Positions 36,705-42,905 of a stretch of DNA of 64,000 bases are shown here, in pieces. The stretch is from positions 5,456,001 to 5,520,000 of the forward strand of contig NZ_CP070225.1 in the NCBI RefSeq assembly GCF_021631985.1, read 5' to 3'. The position numbers and the translations under genes were made by a program. The DNA is from Sandaracinus amylolyticus (GTDB taxonomy: Bacteria; Myxococcota_A; Polyangia; Polyangiales; Sandaracinaceae). The notes under the pieces are model-generated. The model searched no databases and was not told the origin of the DNA. It saw only the letters and a program-made list of their open reading frames with translations. Each line of letters starts with the position of its first letter. Positions within the stretch are counted from its first letter, which is position 1.

Positions 36705-38735
36705 GTGACGACCTCCGCGAGCAAGGGAAGCCCCGGCGGCGTACGCATCCTCGACCGGCTGCGCGACGACGGACGCATCACCGCGCCGCAGTACGAGAGC
36801 TTCTACCACCAGGCCAAGCGCACCGGAGAGCGCATCGAGGAGTCGATCCTCGAGTCCGGCGCGATGAGCGAGGCCGACCTGCTCAAGTTCGTCGCGTCGC
36901 TCTACAAGACGCGCTTCGTCTCGACCGAGCGGCTCTCGAAGGCGGAGATCGATCGCGCGACGCTCGACCTCGTCCCGCGACGGCTCGCGGAGCGGCTGCA
37001 GTGCGTGCCGATCCTCTACGACCGCCGCGCGCAGGTGCTCTCGGTCGTGACCTACGAGCTCGAGGAGGACGTCGGCAAGCAGCTCGCGGTCGCGACCGGC
37101 GCGCGCGAGGTGCGCGTGTTCGCCGCGCGACCGGCGACGGTGCGCGCGGCGCTGCGTCGCTTCTACGGCGGCGATCCCCACGCGTTCGCGCAGGTGCAGG
37201 GCGCGCCCGCGAGCTACGCGCTCGGGCTCGACGCGTTCGAGCGCGGCAGCGGCGGTGGGCCCTCGATCTCGCTCGATCCCACGCCGCGCGGCGGGATCTC
37301 GCTCGATCTCGAGCTCGACGATCGCACGCCCGCGATCGGCTTCGCGCCCGCGCCGCCAGCACCCGCCCGTCCCGCCGCGCCGGCCCGCGCAGCACCGCCG
37401 ACGCCGCCCGAGCTGAAGATCGAGATGCCACGCTTCGAGGTCGCGCCCGACTGGGCCGCGTACCTCGAGACCGTGAACGTGCTGGTGACGGTGCTCGACG
37501 GATCGCGCGCCGAGCTGCGCGGTCACTCGTCGCAGGTCGCGCGCCTCTGCGGGCAGCTCGCGGATCGTCTCTCCATCAGCGGCGCCGACCGCCACGCGAT
37601 CGTGCTCGCCGGGTACCTGCACGACGTGGGCAAGGCGAGCAGCTATCACCTCACCGCGCTCAACGTCTCGCGCTTCGACGGGCATCGCCTGCAGGCGCAG
37701 CGCAGCCACCTCAGCCCGCTGCGCATGTTCGAGTCGGCGCGCCTGCCGCCTGCGACGATCGACGCGCTCACGCACCTCTACGAGCGCTACGACGGACAGG
37801 GCTTCCCCGATCGCCAGGCGGGCAACGCCATCCCGATCGGCGCGCGCATCGTGTCGCTGGTCGAGACCTACTGCGATCTCACGGTGAACCCGAAGAACCC
37901 GTATCGCCGGACGCTCTCGCCGCGCGAGGCGCTCGACGTGCTGCGGCAGCTCGGATCGCAGCTCTTCGATCCCGGGCTCGTCGGCGCGCTGCGGCAGGTC
38001 GTGGTGGGCGACGAGACGAGCGGAAAGAACGGCGCGCGCACGCGCGTGCTGATCGTCGATCCCGAGCGCGAGGAGACCACGATGCTCGAGCTGCGCCTCG
38101 CCGAGGCGGGCCACGGCGTCGTGGTGGTGCGCGATCGCGCCGAGGCGACCGCGGCGATCACGAAGGAGCGCTTCCAGCTGATCGTGTCGGAGCTCGAGCT
38201 CGGCGGCGAGGACGGCTTCGCGCTCCTCGGCGCCCTGCGTGCGGAGCCGAGCGCGGCGGAGATCCCGTTCGTGTTCCTCACGCGCAAGGCGGATCGCGAG
38301 TCGGTCGCGCGCGGGTTCGAGCTCGGCGCGGCGGACTTCCTGGTGAAGCCCGCGTCGGCAGAGCTGGTGGTCGCCAAGACCGCGCAGCTGATCGAGGCAG
38401 GCGTGCGCCGTCGCGGCGGAGGGCTCGCGGGGAACCTGCGCGACATCTCGCTGCCCGACGTGATCCAGGCGCTCGGGAACGGACGCAAGACCGGGCTCCT
38501 GCACGTCTCGGCGGGCGGCACGATGGGCGAGATCCACTTCCTCGAGGGCGCGATCGCCGACGCGCGCTTCGGACAGAGCGCGCGGCAGGAGGCGATCTAC
38601 GCGATGCTCGCGCTCAAAGAGGGCGAGTTCTCGCTCGACCCCGCATTCAAGCCCACGGCTCGCGTGATCAACGAGAGCACGGAGGCGCTCCTGCTCGAGG
38701 GGATGCGCCGCATGGACGAGGCCGGGATCGGCTGA
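36705..38735 (+). CDS. MshEN / HD-GYP / receiver / DUF4388 signalling hybrid
   Basis: The 676-residue protein has an N-terminal type II secretion E/MshEN-like domain (about 14-160) and a Pro/Ala linker. An HD-GYP domain follows (about 255-430), with HD at 306-307 and RYDGQGFPD, then a receiver domain (about 447-565) and a C-terminal DUF4388/PATAN-type domain (about 570-676). HD-GYP enzymes degrade cyclic di-GMP and some MshEN domains bind it. Two modules look degenerate: the His pair before the Glu of the GYP motif reads Leu-Tyr, and the receiver phospho-acceptor Asp is Glu (LIVSELEL). It may be a scaffold rather than an enzyme. The start is GTG with TATCAT 11 nt upstream. Confidence 0.85.
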   Translation: MTTSASKGSPGGVRILDRLRDDGRITAPQYESFYHQAKRTGERIEESILESGAMSEADLLKFVASLYKTRFVSTERLSKAEIDRATLDLVPRRLAERLQCVPILYDRRAQVLSVVTYELEEDVGKQLAVATGAREVRVFAARPATVRAALRRFYGGDPHAFAQVQGAPASYALGLDAFERGSGGGPSISLDPTPRGGISLDLELDDRTPAIGFAPAPPAPARPAAPARAAPPTPPELKIEMPRFEVAPDWAAYLETVNVLVTVLDGSRAELRGHSSQVARLCGQLADRLSISGADRHAIVLAGYLHDVGKASSYHLTALNVSRFDGHRLQAQRSHLSPLRMFESARLPPATIDALTHLYERYDGQGFPDRQAGNAIPIGARIVSLVETYCDLTVNPKNPYRRTLSPREALDVLRQLGSQLFDPGLVGALRQVVVGDETSGKNGARTRVLIVDPEREETTMLELRLAEAGHGVVVVRDRAEATAAITKERFQLIVSELELGGEDGFALLGALRAEPSAAEIPFVFLTRKADRESVARGFELGAADFLVKPASAELVVAKTAQLIEAGVRRRGGGLAGNLRDISLPDVIQALGNGRKTGLLHVSAGGTMGEIHFLEGAIADARFGQSARQEAIYAMLALKEGEFSLDPAFKPTARVINESTEALLLEGMRRMDEAGIG

Positions 38736-38776
38736 ACGTCGTTGCACCCGTGGAGATCCGCACCTATACCGCGGCC

Positions 38777-39301
38777 GTGCCAGCCCCCGGTCGGGCCATC
38801 TCCGCCCTGCTCCGCTGCGTCGTGCTCACGGCGCTGGTCACCGCGTGCGGCGGACCCACATTGCAGAGCGGCGTGTTCCGCGACGCAGAAGCTCACTATC
38901 GGATCGGCGATCTCGGACCGGGCTGGTCACGGCTCTCGGTCGCGGGGCAGAACGATCTCGCGTGGCACAACGAGTCGCTCGGCGCGATCGTGCAGCTGAA
39001 CGCGACCTGTGATCCCTCGCGCGACGTGCCGCTCACCGCGCTCACGAACCACCTGCTGATCGGGTTCCGCGAGCGCGAGATCGTCGAGCAGGAGTTCGTG
39101 TCGATGGACGCGCGCGAGGCGCTGCGCACCCACGCGGTCGCGACGCTCGACGGAGTCCCGCGCGAGCTGCTCTTCGTGGTCCTCAAGAAGGACGACTGCG
39201 TCTACGACTTCGCGCTGATCACGCCGCCGGGCACGCCGTTCAGCGGCGCGCAGCCCGCGTTCGAGCACTTCGTCTCGGGGTTCACGACGGAGGTGCAGTG
39301 A
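38777..39301 (+). CDS. Lipoprotein, first gene of an envelope-transport operon
   Basis: The 174-residue protein has a lipoprotein signal (VLTALVTAC) and a single alpha/beta domain containing YRIGDLGPGWSRL and ELLFVVLKKDDCVYDF. I do not recognise the family. The GTG at 38777 gives a compact signal and lies six nt after a -10-like TATACC; an earlier in-frame GTG at 38750 would lengthen the N-terminus. The stop overlaps the MlaE start (GTGA). Its place suggests a periplasmic or outer-membrane-attached partner of the transporter. Confidence 0.7.
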   Translation: MPAPGRAISALLRCVVLTALVTACGGPTLQSGVFRDAEAHYRIGDLGPGWSRLSVAGQNDLAWHNESLGAIVQLNATCDPSRDVPLTALTNHLLIGFREREIVEQEFVSMDAREALRTHAVATLDGVPRELLFVVLKKDDCVYDFALITPPGTPFSGAQPAFEHFVSGFTTEVQ

Positions 39302-40119
39302 GCGCGCAGCCGCAGCCCGCGGAGAAGTCGCTCGCGGTCCGCGCGATCGAGGCGCAGGGCGCGCGACTGATCCGCGCGATGAACCACGTGGGCGGCATCA
39401 CCCAGATGACGCTGCGCGCGTTCCGCTCGCTGTTCACGACGCGCTTCGAGGCGCGCTCGTTCCTCTACCAGCTCGAGCAGATGGGCGTGAAGTCGTTCGG
39501 CATCGCCGCGGCGACCGCGATCTTCGTCGGCATCGTCATGGCGATCCAGTTCGCGTTCTCGCTCGAGCGCTTCGGCGCGCGCGACAGCGTCGGACGCATC
39601 GTCGGTCTCTCCGAGGCGCGCGAGCTCGCGCCCTCGCTCACCGCGCTCGTCGTGGGCAGCCGCATCGGCGCGGGCATCGCGGCCGAGCTCGGGTCGATGG
39701 CGGTCACCGAGCAGATCGACGCGATCCGCGCGCTCGGCGCCGACCCGGTCAAGAAGCTCGTGGTGCCGCGCATGCTCGCGGGCATCCTGATGATGCCGAT
39801 GCTCACCGTGTTCGCGCTGGTGCTGGGCATCGGCAGCGCGGCGCTGGTGTGCAACCTGACGTTCGGGATCGCGATCCCGTTCTTCGTGACCACCGCGCTC
39901 GACTCGATCTGGGTCGAGGACTTCCTGTCCGGCATCGGCAAGACGCCGTTCTTCGGGTTCCTGATCGCGGTGCTCGGCTGTCATTTCGGGATGACCACGC
40001 GCGGCGGCACCGAGGGCGTCGGGCGCAGCACGACGACGTCGGTCGTCGTGGTCGCGATCAGCATCCTCGTCGCGGACGCGGTCCTCACCCAGATCTTCAT
40101 GTCGTTCATGTCGCGATGA
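39298..40119 (+). CDS. MlaE family ABC permease
   Basis: The 273-residue membrane protein carries the MlaE core: MAIQFAFSLERFGA, ELAPSLTALVVGSRIGAGIAAELGSM with TEQIDAIRALGADP, and five to six transmembrane helices. MlaE proteins are permeases for phospholipid or sterol-like lipid trafficking between the membranes, normally with MlaF (ATPase) and MlaD (MCE protein). Neither MlaF nor MlaD is adjacent; a LolD-type ATPase ends the operon instead. Both ends overlap neighbours by four bases. The start is GTG. Confidence 0.92.
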   Translation: MSAQPQPAEKSLAVRAIEAQGARLIRAMNHVGGITQMTLRAFRSLFTTRFEARSFLYQLEQMGVKSFGIAAATAIFVGIVMAIQFAFSLERFGARDSVGRIVGLSEARELAPSLTALVVGSRIGAGIAAELGSMAVTEQIDAIRALGADPVKKLVVPRMLAGILMMPMLTVFALVLGIGSAALVCNLTFGIAIPFFVTTALDSIWVEDFLSGIGKTPFFGFLIAVLGCHFGMTTRGGTEGVGRSTTTSVVVVAISILVADAVLTQIFMSFMSR

Positions 40120-40436
40120 TGCGCCTGCGCGTGCTCGCGGCTGCGCTGGTCGTGCTCGCGCTGATGATCGCGGGAGTGGTGCTCGATGCGGCGCGGCGGC
40201 GCGGCGACGGGGCGCACGCGCGTGCGATGCGCGTCGAGCTCGCGAGGACGATCGGGCTGCCCGATCTCGCGCTCTCGAGCGGCGCGCGATGGCTGCGTCA
40301 TCCCTCGCAGGTCGAGCCCGCGGCGGCGCTCTCCGACGCGCCGGGCGCGCTCGACGTCGATCCCGCGGGCGCGTGGATCGCGCCGCCGCGCGCGGTGCTG
40401 GGCGCGGGCGCGACCGGCAGGATCGAGCGGCGATGA
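40116..40436 (+). CDS. Small single-pass membrane protein
   Basis: The 106-residue protein has one N-terminal hydrophobic helix (VLAAALVVLALMIAGVVL) and a short periplasmic tail containing TIGLPDLALSSGARWLRHP. The family is not recognised. It overlaps the MlaE stop (ATGA at 40116) and the FtsX-like start (ATGA at 40433), so it is translated in register with the transporter and is probably an accessory subunit. Confidence 0.7.
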   Translation: MMRLRVLAAALVVLALMIAGVVLDAARRRGDGAHARAMRVELARTIGLPDLALSSGARWLRHPSQVEPAAALSDAPGALDVDPAGAWIAPPRAVLGAGATGRIERR

Positions 40437-41602
40437 AGCGCCAGCTCGCGCTCCTCGATCACGCGCTCGGCGCGCTGCGCCGGCGCGCCGGGCGGAACGC
40501 GGCGATCGCGATCGGTCTCGCCGCCGTGGTCGCGCTCTTCGGCTCGACGTCGTTCCTCGCCGAGGCGCTGCGGGCCGAGTACCGCGCGCTCGCCGACGGA
40601 CTTCCCGATCTCACGGTGCAGCGTCTCGTCGCGGGGCGTCCCGCGCTGATCGCGGAGCGCGAGGCCGCGACGATCGAGGCGCTCGATCTGCCCGGCGTGC
40701 GCAGCGTGCGACCGCGGGTGTGGGGCTACCTCTTCGTCGCGCCGATCGAGGGCAACGTCGTGGTGATCGGAAGGGGCGCCCACGACGACGCGGAAATCGT
40801 CGCGGGACGCTGGCCCGAGCGCGACGACGAGATCGTGGTGGGCTCGGGCATCGCGCGACTGCTCGGTGCGCGCGCCGGCGATCAGATCGCGCTCACCGCG
40901 AGCGAGGGCGCGACGCCGGTCGTGCTGACGATCTCGGGCGTGCTCGACGCCCGCACCGCGGCGCTCGGCAGCGATCTCGTGATCGCGACCGACGCCCGCG
41001 CGCGCTCGCTCCTCGGGGTGCCCGAGGGCATGGCGACCGATCTCGCGCTCGATCTCGCGCGCGACGAAGAGGCCGCGGTCGTCACCGCCGAGATCGCGCA
41101 GGCGGTGAGCGGCGCGCGGGTGATCGATCGACAGCTGCTCGAGCGCACCTACGAGCTCACCTTCGACGCGCGCGCCGGGCTCGTCGGCGCGATGCTGGTG
41201 CCGGCGCTGCTCGCGCTACTCCTGCTCGCGTGGGATCGCCTCACCGGGCTCGGCGAAGCGGAGCGCCGCGAGATCGGTGTGCTCAAGGCAACTGGTTGGA
41301 GCACCAACGATGTGCTCACGGCACGGATGTGGGAGTCGGGGCTGGTCGCGCTGGTGGGCTCGGTCGCGGGCGTGGCGATCGGCTACGTGCACGCGTTCTG
41401 GCTCGGCGCGCCGGGGATCGCGGACGCGCTCTTCGGGTGGAGCGTGCTGCACGCGGAGCTCGCGCTCGCTCCCGCGGTCGATCTCGCGCAGGTGCTCGCG
41501 ATCGTGAGCGCGGTGGTCGTGCCCTTCGTCGCGGTGAGCGTGGTGCCGGCGTGGCGCGCGGCGATGCTCGATCCCGATCGCCTGCTGCGAGGTGGGCCGT
41601 GA
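40433..41602 (+). CDS. FtsX-like (MacB/LolC type) ABC permease
   Basis: The 389-residue protein starts with a membrane helix (AAIAIGLAAVVALFGSTSFL), has a periplasmic domain of about 200 residues, then three helices (about 255-370) with the FtsX-type stretch REIGVLKATGWSTNDVL between them. FtsX/LolC permeases use ATP hydrolysis to move lipoproteins or drive periplasmic work rather than classic transport. The LolD-like ATPase two genes downstream is its expected partner. Both junctions are four-base overlaps. Confidence 0.88.
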   Translation: MKRQLALLDHALGALRRRAGRNAAIAIGLAAVVALFGSTSFLAEALRAEYRALADGLPDLTVQRLVAGRPALIAEREAATIEALDLPGVRSVRPRVWGYLFVAPIEGNVVVIGRGAHDDAEIVAGRWPERDDEIVVGSGIARLLGARAGDQIALTASEGATPVVLTISGVLDARTAALGSDLVIATDARARSLLGVPEGMATDLALDLARDEEAAVVTAEIAQAVSGARVIDRQLLERTYELTFDARAGLVGAMLVPALLALLLLAWDRLTGLGEAERREIGVLKATGWSTNDVLTARMWESGLVALVGSVAGVAIGYVHAFWLGAPGIADALFGWSVLHAELALAPAVDLAQVLAIVSAVVVPFVAVSVVPAWRAAMLDPDRLLRGGP

Positions 41603-42219
41603 GCCGGAGGTACGTCGGTGAGGGCGCGCTCGAGACGATCGACGTGCTCGGCGGAAAGCCGCTCGTCGTGCTCCTCGGGGTGCTGCCCGCGGCGTGCATC
41701 GCGCTCGGCGCGGTCTTGGCCACGCGTCCCGGCATGACCGCGGTGCTCGCACCGCTCGCGGTGGGCACGCTCGTTCCGCTCTGGCTCGGATGGCGCAGCG
41801 GGTTCTGGCGCGCGCTGGGCTCGGTGCTGCGCCGTGAGCCGCGACCGACGTTCCGCGTGGAGCTCGACGACCTGACCGTGCAGAGCTCGGGGCGACACGG
41901 CGCGATGCTCGTCTTCGACTGGTTCGAGATCGAGCGCTACTCGCCCAGCGATCTCGGCCTCGTGCTGTGGCTGCGCACCCCGAAGGACGGCGCGAACTGC
42001 GTGCTGCTCCCCCGGCGCTTCTTCCCGGCGGAGGACTGGGATCCCCTGGTCGCGCTGGTGCGCGAGAAGCTGCCGAGTTCCGCGAAGGCGCACGACGCGA
42101 GCGTCGCGGCGCGCACCCAGAGCACGCGAGGGCGCACCCTGCGCACGGTGGTCCTGTGGTGCGTCCTCCTCGTGGTCTGCTACGCGGTCTACCAGGTCCT
42201 CACGGAGCCCGGCCGATGA
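41599..42219 (+). CDS. Membrane protein with YcxB-like domain
   Basis: The 206-residue protein has two N-terminal helices (VVLLGVLPAACIALGAVLA and AVLAPLAVGTLVPLWLGW), a cytoplasmic PH-like region resembling YcxB (FRVELDDLTVQSSG, VFDWFEIERYSPSDLGLVLWL and LLPRRFF) and a C-terminal helix. YcxB-type domains have no firmly known role. GTG start overlapping the FtsX-like stop; the stop overlaps the ATPase start. Confidence 0.65.
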   Translation: MSRRYVGEGALETIDVLGGKPLVVLLGVLPAACIALGAVLATRPGMTAVLAPLAVGTLVPLWLGWRSGFWRALGSVLRREPRPTFRVELDDLTVQSSGRHGAMLVFDWFEIERYSPSDLGLVLWLRTPKDGANCVLLPRRFFPAEDWDPLVALVREKLPSSAKAHDASVAARTQSTRGRTLRTVVLWCVLLVVCYAVYQVLTEPGR

Positions 42220-42905
42220 GCGCGCTGCTCGAGACGGTCGAGGTCACCAAGCGCTACCTCGACGGGGAGCGACGCCACCTCGCGGTCGATCGTGTCTCGA
42301 TCGCGATCGACGCCGGCTCGCTGATCGCGCTGCGCGGCCCGAGCGGCTCGGGGAAGACCACGCTGCTCGGCCTGCTCGGCGGGATGATCGCGCCGACCAG
42401 CGGCGACGTGCGCGTCGACGGCGCGTCGATCGTGCACCTGCGCGATCGCCACCGCACCGAGCTGCGCCGCACCAAGATCGGGTTCGTGTTCCAGGAGCTC
42501 GCGCTCGTCCCCGACATGACGCTCGACGAGAACGTGCTCCTGCCGCTCGTCCCGACCGGGGGCGCGACGCGCGACGAGCGCGCGCGCGCGACCTCGCTGC
42601 TCGAGCGCTTCGGCCTCGCGAGCAAGGCCGAGGCGCGCGCGAGCAAGCTCTCGGGCGGCGAGCGCCAGCGCGGCGCCATCGTGCGCGCGCTGGTGCGCGA
42701 TCCGCGCGTGCTCCTGCTCGACGAGCCCACCGCACACCTCGACGCCGCGAACGCGACCGAGGTCGTCGCGCTGCTCGCGTCCCTGCGCGACGAAGGACGC
42801 GCGATCGTCTGCGCGACCCACGACCCGCGCCTCGCCGACGATCCTCGGGTGAATCGCGCGATCGCGATGGCCGACGGCCGCTTGGTGACCTCGCCGAACG
42901 GCTGA
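42216..42905 (+). CDS. LolD/MacB-type ABC transporter ATPase
   Basis: The 229-residue protein has Walker A GPSGSGKTT, Q-loop FVFQELALVPDM, signature LSGGERQRGAIVRAL, Walker B VLLLDEPT and the switch His in CATHDPRL. The short size and sequence fit the LolD/MacB class that pairs with FtsX-type permeases. It is the last gene of the operon and probably powers the FtsX-like permease; whether it also serves the MlaE permease is the open question. Confidence 0.93.
   Translation: MSALLETVEVTKRYLDGERRHLAVDRVSIAIDAGSLIALRGPSGSGKTTLLGLLGGMIAPTSGDVRVDGASIVHLRDRHRTELRRTKIGFVFQELALVPDMTLDENVLLPLVPTGGATRDERARATSLLERFGLASKAEARASKLSGGERQRGAIVRALVRDPRVLLLDEPTAHLDAANATEVVALLASLRDEGRAIVCATHDPRLADDPRVNRAIAMADGRLVTSPNG

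Follow-up and report, generated by a model that had tools for sequence, protein, structure and literature searches.

The window analysed here, a stretch of 64,000 nucleotides from the Sandaracinus amylolyticus genome (contig NZ_CP070225.1, positions 5,456,001 to 5,520,000), carries a six-gene operon in which two permease genes of different types accompany one ATPase gene (Table 1). The genes encode a lipoprotein (LIPO), an MlaE-type permease, a small protein (SMP), an FtsX-type permease (FTSX), a fifth protein and a LolD-type ATPase (LOLD). An earlier note, made from the sequence alone, had proposed a hybrid lipid-transport operon, in which either the ATPase would serve two unrelated permeases or MlaE would work with a distant ATPase. 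Its description of a six-gene unit with five four-base overlaps and without an MCE gene agrees with the coordinates, the overlaps and a PF02470 search, which returned no match in the window and placed all three MCE genes of the genome elsewhere. The comparisons reported below suggest that the operon very probably joins parts of two separate ATP-binding cassette (ABC) systems, the other components of each being encoded at a distant locus.

Table 1. Features of the operon region in the window and of related loci elsewhere in the S. amylolyticus genome (G000)
Feature	Position	Strand	Remarks
LIPO, lipoprotein of predicted PsbP/Mog1-like fold (module 1)	38777..39301	+	N terminus lipobox-like by eye
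MlaE-type permease (module 1)	39298..40119	+	PF02405 and TIGR00056 above cut-offs
SMP, small protein (module 2)	40116..40436	+	single N-terminal hydrophobic stretch, by eye
FTSX, MacB/LolC-like type VII permease (module 2)	40433..41602	+	MacB_PCD and FtsX domains above cut-offs
'YcxB-like' fifth gene, not a conserved part	41599..42219	+	seen in this genome alone, among 56
LOLD, LolD-type ATPase, probable partner of FTSX (module 2)	42216..42905	+	ABC_tran E 2.6e-34
MshEN-HD-response regulator-DUF4388 gene	36705-38735		upstream of the operon
Mla locus A			MlaF-like, MlaE, MlaE, MlaF, MlaD
Mla locus B			MlaF and MlaE, without MlaD
Mla locus C			MCE gene adjoining RND-like protein (by eye)
Mla locus D	G000:C1:4.3107-4.3127 Mb		MlaF_D and MlaD_D, without MlaE
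Lone MlaF-type ATPase	L167 6146-6934 (G000:C1 ~1.782 Mb)		54% identity to MlaF_D; no adjacent MlaE or MlaD call
MemP and NosL	G000:C1:10421035-10422516 (L210 6988-8520)	-	neighbours, 4.9 Mb from the operon

The five overlaps (GTGA 39298-39301, ATGA 40116-40119, ATGA 40433-40436, GTGA 41599-41602 and ATGA 42216-42219) are of a kind found in 9/38 same-strand neighbour pairs of the window, according to rough gene calls, and being this frequent they indicate a tight operon and nothing beyond. All six open reading frames have a GC content of 0.91-0.98 at the third position, which supports coding; LIPO has an alternative start, GTG, at 38750. Pfam and NCBIfam agree with the earlier assignments of the two permeases and the ATPase. 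MlaE matches PF02405 with E 1.9e-68 and TIGR00056 with 221.1 bits (cut-off 212.2), and all six solved sequences that it matches are MlaE/YrbE-type permeases (best 7ch8, E 3e-33). FTSX scores 41.5 bits for MacB_PCD (cut-off 27) and 36.9 bits for the FtsX domain (cut-off 25.5), with LolC (7arh, E 4.1e-11) as its best solved match by profile. Its 46.4 bits against the LolC/LolE model TIGR02212 are far under the cut-off of 362.45; similarly, the best NCBIfam model of LOLD is LolD (TIGR02211), at 194.8 bits for a cut-off of 307.75. Lol lipoprotein export by FTSX and LOLD was discarded on these scores and on the different partners of the two proteins. The Pfam search of SMP gave no match.

Probable partners of the two permeases

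Module membership, ancestral gene order, co-occurrence and co-varying distances were established by comparison. Co-occurrence was scored in 56 genomes, including that of S. amylolyticus (10.96 Mb in two contigs, with four MlaE and three MCE genes), with thresholds of at least 200 bits for window-type MlaE, E < 1e-70 for FTSX and at least 195 bits for LOLD. In this sample LOLD follows FTSX (p 1e-10) and not MlaE (p 0.62), and the two permeases do not follow each other (p 1.0). MlaE occurs instead with MlaD_D (p 1.4e-5) and MlaF_D (p 6.7e-5), the MCE protein and the ATPase encoded together at locus D. Evolutionary distances compared across 11 genomes (MemP, a membrane protein described below, missing for G001 and G007) form two blocks, LIPO/MlaE/MlaF with r 0.73-0.83 and SMP/FTSX/LOLD/MemP with r 0.76-0.89. 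The partial correlations, inflated like the others by genome relatedness, separate the ATPases: 0.86 for FTSX and LOLD given MlaE, 0.05 for MlaE and LOLD given FTSX, and 0.76 for MlaE and MlaF given FTSX. As LOLD thus follows FTSX rather than MlaE, both in presence or absence and in evolutionary distance, its permease is most likely FTSX, and the ATPase of MlaE most likely the remote MlaF_D. One ATPase for two permeases is therefore unsupported, and the other proposal of the earlier note, MlaE with a distant ATPase, gains support, the likely partner being the MlaF_D-MlaD_D pair at 4.311 Mb.

This pair was found by searching the genome for further mlaF/mlaD loci, as the earlier note had advised. 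The window has an MlaE gene without MlaF and MlaD beside it and locus D, 1.18 Mb away, has the converse, so that the two are complementary, with a pair of the same lineage as MlaE present in the genome; MlaD_D is an MCE protein of 378 residues. MlaE occurs in 51 genomes of the sample, MlaD_D in 52 and MlaF_D in 51. All three are jointly missing from G006, G018, G026 and G046, of which G018 is 99% and G026 100% complete. The sole discordance between MlaE and MlaD_D is G003, which has no MlaE and in which a contig ends beside FTSX, and G033 falls below the MlaF_D threshold with a partial match at a contig end.

Gene order was followed in 50 MlaE loci from the order to which the window belongs and in 20 outgroup loci from elsewhere in the phylum, taken from 39 class- or phylum-level matches. 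An MlaF_D-type gene lies directly 3' of MlaE in 19/20 outgroup loci, with an MlaD_D match in 10/20, and in the order MlaF_D adjoins MlaE in 6/50 loci, five of which also have MlaD_D. The lipoprotein has stayed with the permease, a LIPO match standing beside MlaE in 45/50 order loci and a LIPO profile match upstream of it in 20/20 outgroup loci. The MlaE tree contained 67 non-paralogue rows (the window's own MlaE, 47 of the 50 order loci and 19 of the 20 outgroup loci, L323 being absent), and 42 of its 43 split-type rows fall in one clade with support 100/98, G157 standing outside. The simplest history suggested by these gene orders is an ancestral LIPO-MlaE-MlaF-MlaD operon that would have been split once within the order. 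Inside the split clade, G016 (L078) has MlaE directly before MlaF_D, with MlaD_D on a separate contig, an arrangement that represents either a re-joined operon or a second history. Sequences with in-frame stops were excluded from the alignments (FTSX L121, L122 and L124; MlaE L087, L102 and L106; LOLD L074); the stop within the three FTSX matches, which come from the f5 genomes G037, G052 and G032, respectively, is an in-frame TGA that may reflect either a sequencing error or decay.

The FtsX half was traced in the best 80 of 508 FTSX relatives, here called named loci, of which 17 have MlaE within 6 kb and 63 do not. Counts in these loci were made without culling overlapping frames, since culling undercounts. 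Near FTSX in the 63 loci without MlaE are SMP (59), LOLD (58), MemP (54) and NosL (47), and the titles of these loci include Geobacter, Desulfuromonas, Nitrospirae, Gammaproteobacteria, Holophagaceae and Verrucomicrobia; judged from its sequence matches, NosL-SMP-FtsX-LolD-MemP is a gene set conserved across several phyla. Among the 56 genomes, FTSX occurs in 20, MemP in the same 20 and in G028 (p 3e-14), and NosL in all 20 and in G016, G023, G028 and G046 (p 1e-11). Seven genes, LIPO-MLAE-SMP-FTSX-LOLD-MemP-NosL, are contiguous in G002 and G025, and SMP-FTSX-LOLD-MemP-NosL in G014. LOLD lies apart from FTSX yet adjoins MemP in G004, G008, G021 and G054, and the four f5 genomes under the 195-bit LOLD threshold have a weaker LolD-type gene adjoining MemP.

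MemP is a polytopic membrane protein of about 340 residues whose cysteines C90, C170, C171 and C255 do not vary among 62 sequences; NosL keeps C..CGM in 8 aligned sequences. The predicted model of MemP is confident (pLDDT 94.9), and Foldseek against PDB returned no match for it at E <= 0.001. VIA-align aligned portions of the model with Z up to 12.7, a designed bundle ranking first, but the tool describes such scores as common for helical proteins. Family searches with Pfam and NCBIfam gave no convincing match (single hits of E 0.9 and E 0.091, and in one search none), and weak family hits were obtained for 3/62 members (best E 0.0014).

Maturation of N2O reductase by this set is unsupported. 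NosZ was not found in the S. amylolyticus genome at E <= 1e-20 (TIGR04246), and it does not track the module, occurring in 6/20 genomes with FTSX and in 17/36 without. Five genomes (G008:C408, G014:C1097, G016:C161, G025:C277 and G043:C409) have a NosL with a divergent NosZ-like gene, scoring under the TIGR04246 cut-off, at a distance of no more than about 8 kb; all of them except G016 have a second NosL.

Proposed systems and competing readings

The physical pairing, substrates and direction of both systems are what we infer from these comparisons. The first system would be an Mla-type phospholipid transporter formed by LIPO and MlaE from the window and MlaF_D and MlaD_D from locus D. Mla-family systems move phospholipid between membranes; by analogy, MlaF_D would drive MlaE, MlaD_D would carry lipid through the periplasm, and LIPO may act as an accessory envelope lipoprotein. 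The second would be a NosL-linked type VII ABC system, composed of SMP, FTSX and LOLD from the window and of MemP and NosL from 10.421 Mb. MacB and LolCDE work through mechanotransmission, and LOLD would drive FTSX in the same manner. Because of NosL and the invariant cysteines of MemP, the most likely role of this system is the handling of a thiophilic metal, Cu(I) or another, within the envelope. The label 'hybrid lipid-transport operon' would thus hold for the lipoprotein-MlaE half and fails for the FtsX half, which is part of a NosL-linked system. That two permeases seem to share one motor most likely results from the reshuffling of genes.

Several observations weigh against this two-system reading. 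The co-occurrence p values are overstated, the genomes being related, and MlaF distances correlate also with those of FTSX (r 0.74; partial 0.62 given MlaE). Other MlaF-type ATPases of the genome, including the lone one at 1.78 Mb, could serve MlaE. The copper role draws on NosL and the cysteines, and NosL occurs in three module-free genomes too. The permeases are also linked more tightly to each other than FTSX is to its ATPase, which two independent systems would not explain: among the named loci in which MlaE and FTSX are joined, some of them on short contigs, all 17 have LIPO and SMP, just 6 have LOLD, and MemP and NosL are present in 5 each. The genes of MlaE and SMP, moreover, share 1 or 4 bases in 9/13 loci, in families f1, f4 and f12. 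In relatives, MlaE adjoins mlaF and often mlaD, the outcome that the earlier note had named as refuting its reading, yet its junction with FTSX persists in the 17 loci.

If LOLD drove both permeases as the shared motor of a hybrid lipid transporter, its place as the sole ATPase of the operon and the translational coupling of MlaE, SMP and FTSX in several families would be accounted for. Such sharing is, nevertheless, very unlikely, as LOLD does not follow MlaE in occurrence or in distance, is not found nearby in 11/17 of the joined named loci, and MlaE genomes retain their own MlaF_D. The tight linkage would also fit two ABC transporters that have their own ATPases and serve one envelope process, hence the permease genes in one operon; joined named loci keep LIPO, MlaE, SMP and FTSX together without exception, and 18 order genomes have both permeases, 13 of them in joined form. 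The two systems may be coupled, and permeases staying together while their motors move may reflect either history or a functional link. As an explanation of the operon, however, such coupling is improbable: MlaE occurs without FTSX in 33 genomes, the two genes are far apart in G032, G037, G045 and G052, the evolutionary distances of the two blocks differ, and the linkage is explicable by common descent of a single joining. By title, 16 of the joined named loci are Sandaracinus, Polyangiaceae, Labilithrix or Myxococcales, and one is Deltaproteobacteria. A bolder version, in which Polyangia would build lipoprotein-MlaE-SMP-FtsX as one co-translated membrane unit with ATPases in trans, so that metal and Mla lipid transporters act jointly on one envelope process atop a widespread uncharacterised NosL-SMP-FtsX-LolD-MemP system, is speculative and rather unlikely. 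Finally, the absence of an adjacent MlaF or MlaD could mark the window MlaE as a remnant of the split operon that no longer functions, a reading of almost negligible probability given its 90% and 84% identity to the proteins of G001 and G002, its family score above cut-off and its near-perfect co-occurrence with MlaD_D.

Under the two-system reading, a permease and an ATPase may be encoded side by side in an operon with perfect overlaps without being partners, and annotation based on neighbourhood would assign MlaE the wrong motor. Testable partners can now be named for both permeases, and the NosL/SMP/FtsX-type/LolD-type/MemP set may represent a new way in which metals are handled in the envelope.

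Known systems and the remaining genes

In Mce systems the ATPase MceG is unlinked, and MlaF_D would be a parallel case of a remote ATPase. NosY is a permease of another type than FtsX. For Veillonella parvula, a minimal MlaEFD system with an elongated MlaD is described (PMC10665443). The present system likewise combines MlaE and MlaF with a long MCE protein, and the ancestral unit suggested for the phylum also has MlaE, MlaF and MlaD together; it differs in that MlaE lies far from MlaF and MlaD and travels with a PsbP-like lipoprotein. The second system resembles the type VII systems LolCDE, MacB, FtsEX and YtrF in its FtsX-type permease and LolD-type ATPase, with LolC as the best solved match, but scores far under the LolCE and LolD cut-offs and has NosL and MemP as partners; the fused ATPase of MacB is also lacking. 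NosDFYL, which serves copper-site assembly of N2O reductase (PMC7558416), is likewise an ABC transporter accompanied by NosL, a Cu(I) chaperone family, but the permease here is FtsX-type and NosZ is not tied to the set. In Thioalkalivibrio, ABC permeases and ATPases lie downstream of the gene for thiocyanate dehydrogenase, a copper enzyme, and the authors suggest copper acquisition (PMC5328954). A Thioalkalivibrio locus (L301), which may or may not hold those ABC genes, is among the FTSX matches. Titles and abstract openings in the openly licensed literature yielded no description of a NosL-FtsX-LolD module or of this MlaE arrangement. The Mla part is known in kind and the answer to the shared-motor puzzle fairly ordinary; NosL-SMP-FtsX-LolD-MemP is an uncharacterised conserved system.

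The model of LIPO (pLDDT 91.5) has PsbP (2xb3, E 1.1e-7) as its best Foldseek match and also matches LpqN (6e5d, E 3.4e-5), which by its title is involved in cell envelope biogenesis. The predicted fold is that of LpqN/PsbP/DcrB-type lipoproteins, but identity in the listed matches is 9-18%, and a common fold shows no function.

The 'YcxB-like' label of the fifth gene found no backing: no Pfam family matched at E up to 10, HMMER filters dropping most weak matches, and the 55 relatives gave three weak partial hits only (E 0.003-0.006). At this gene, 583 bases of the window are unmatched in G001, a collinear sister genome, which has an 11-codon open stretch with a GTGA overlap at each end, possibly the remnant of an in-frame loss; in G002, FTSX and LOLD overlap directly. 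The neighbourhood check proposed in the earlier note therefore rules out a conserved six-gene unit, and the fifth gene would be a lineage-specific passenger.

The gene upstream of the operon, encoding MshEN, HD, response regulator and DUF4388 domains, is a possible regulator candidate; matches to it of at least 300 bits lie near MlaE in 25/50 order loci, frequently on the opposite strand.

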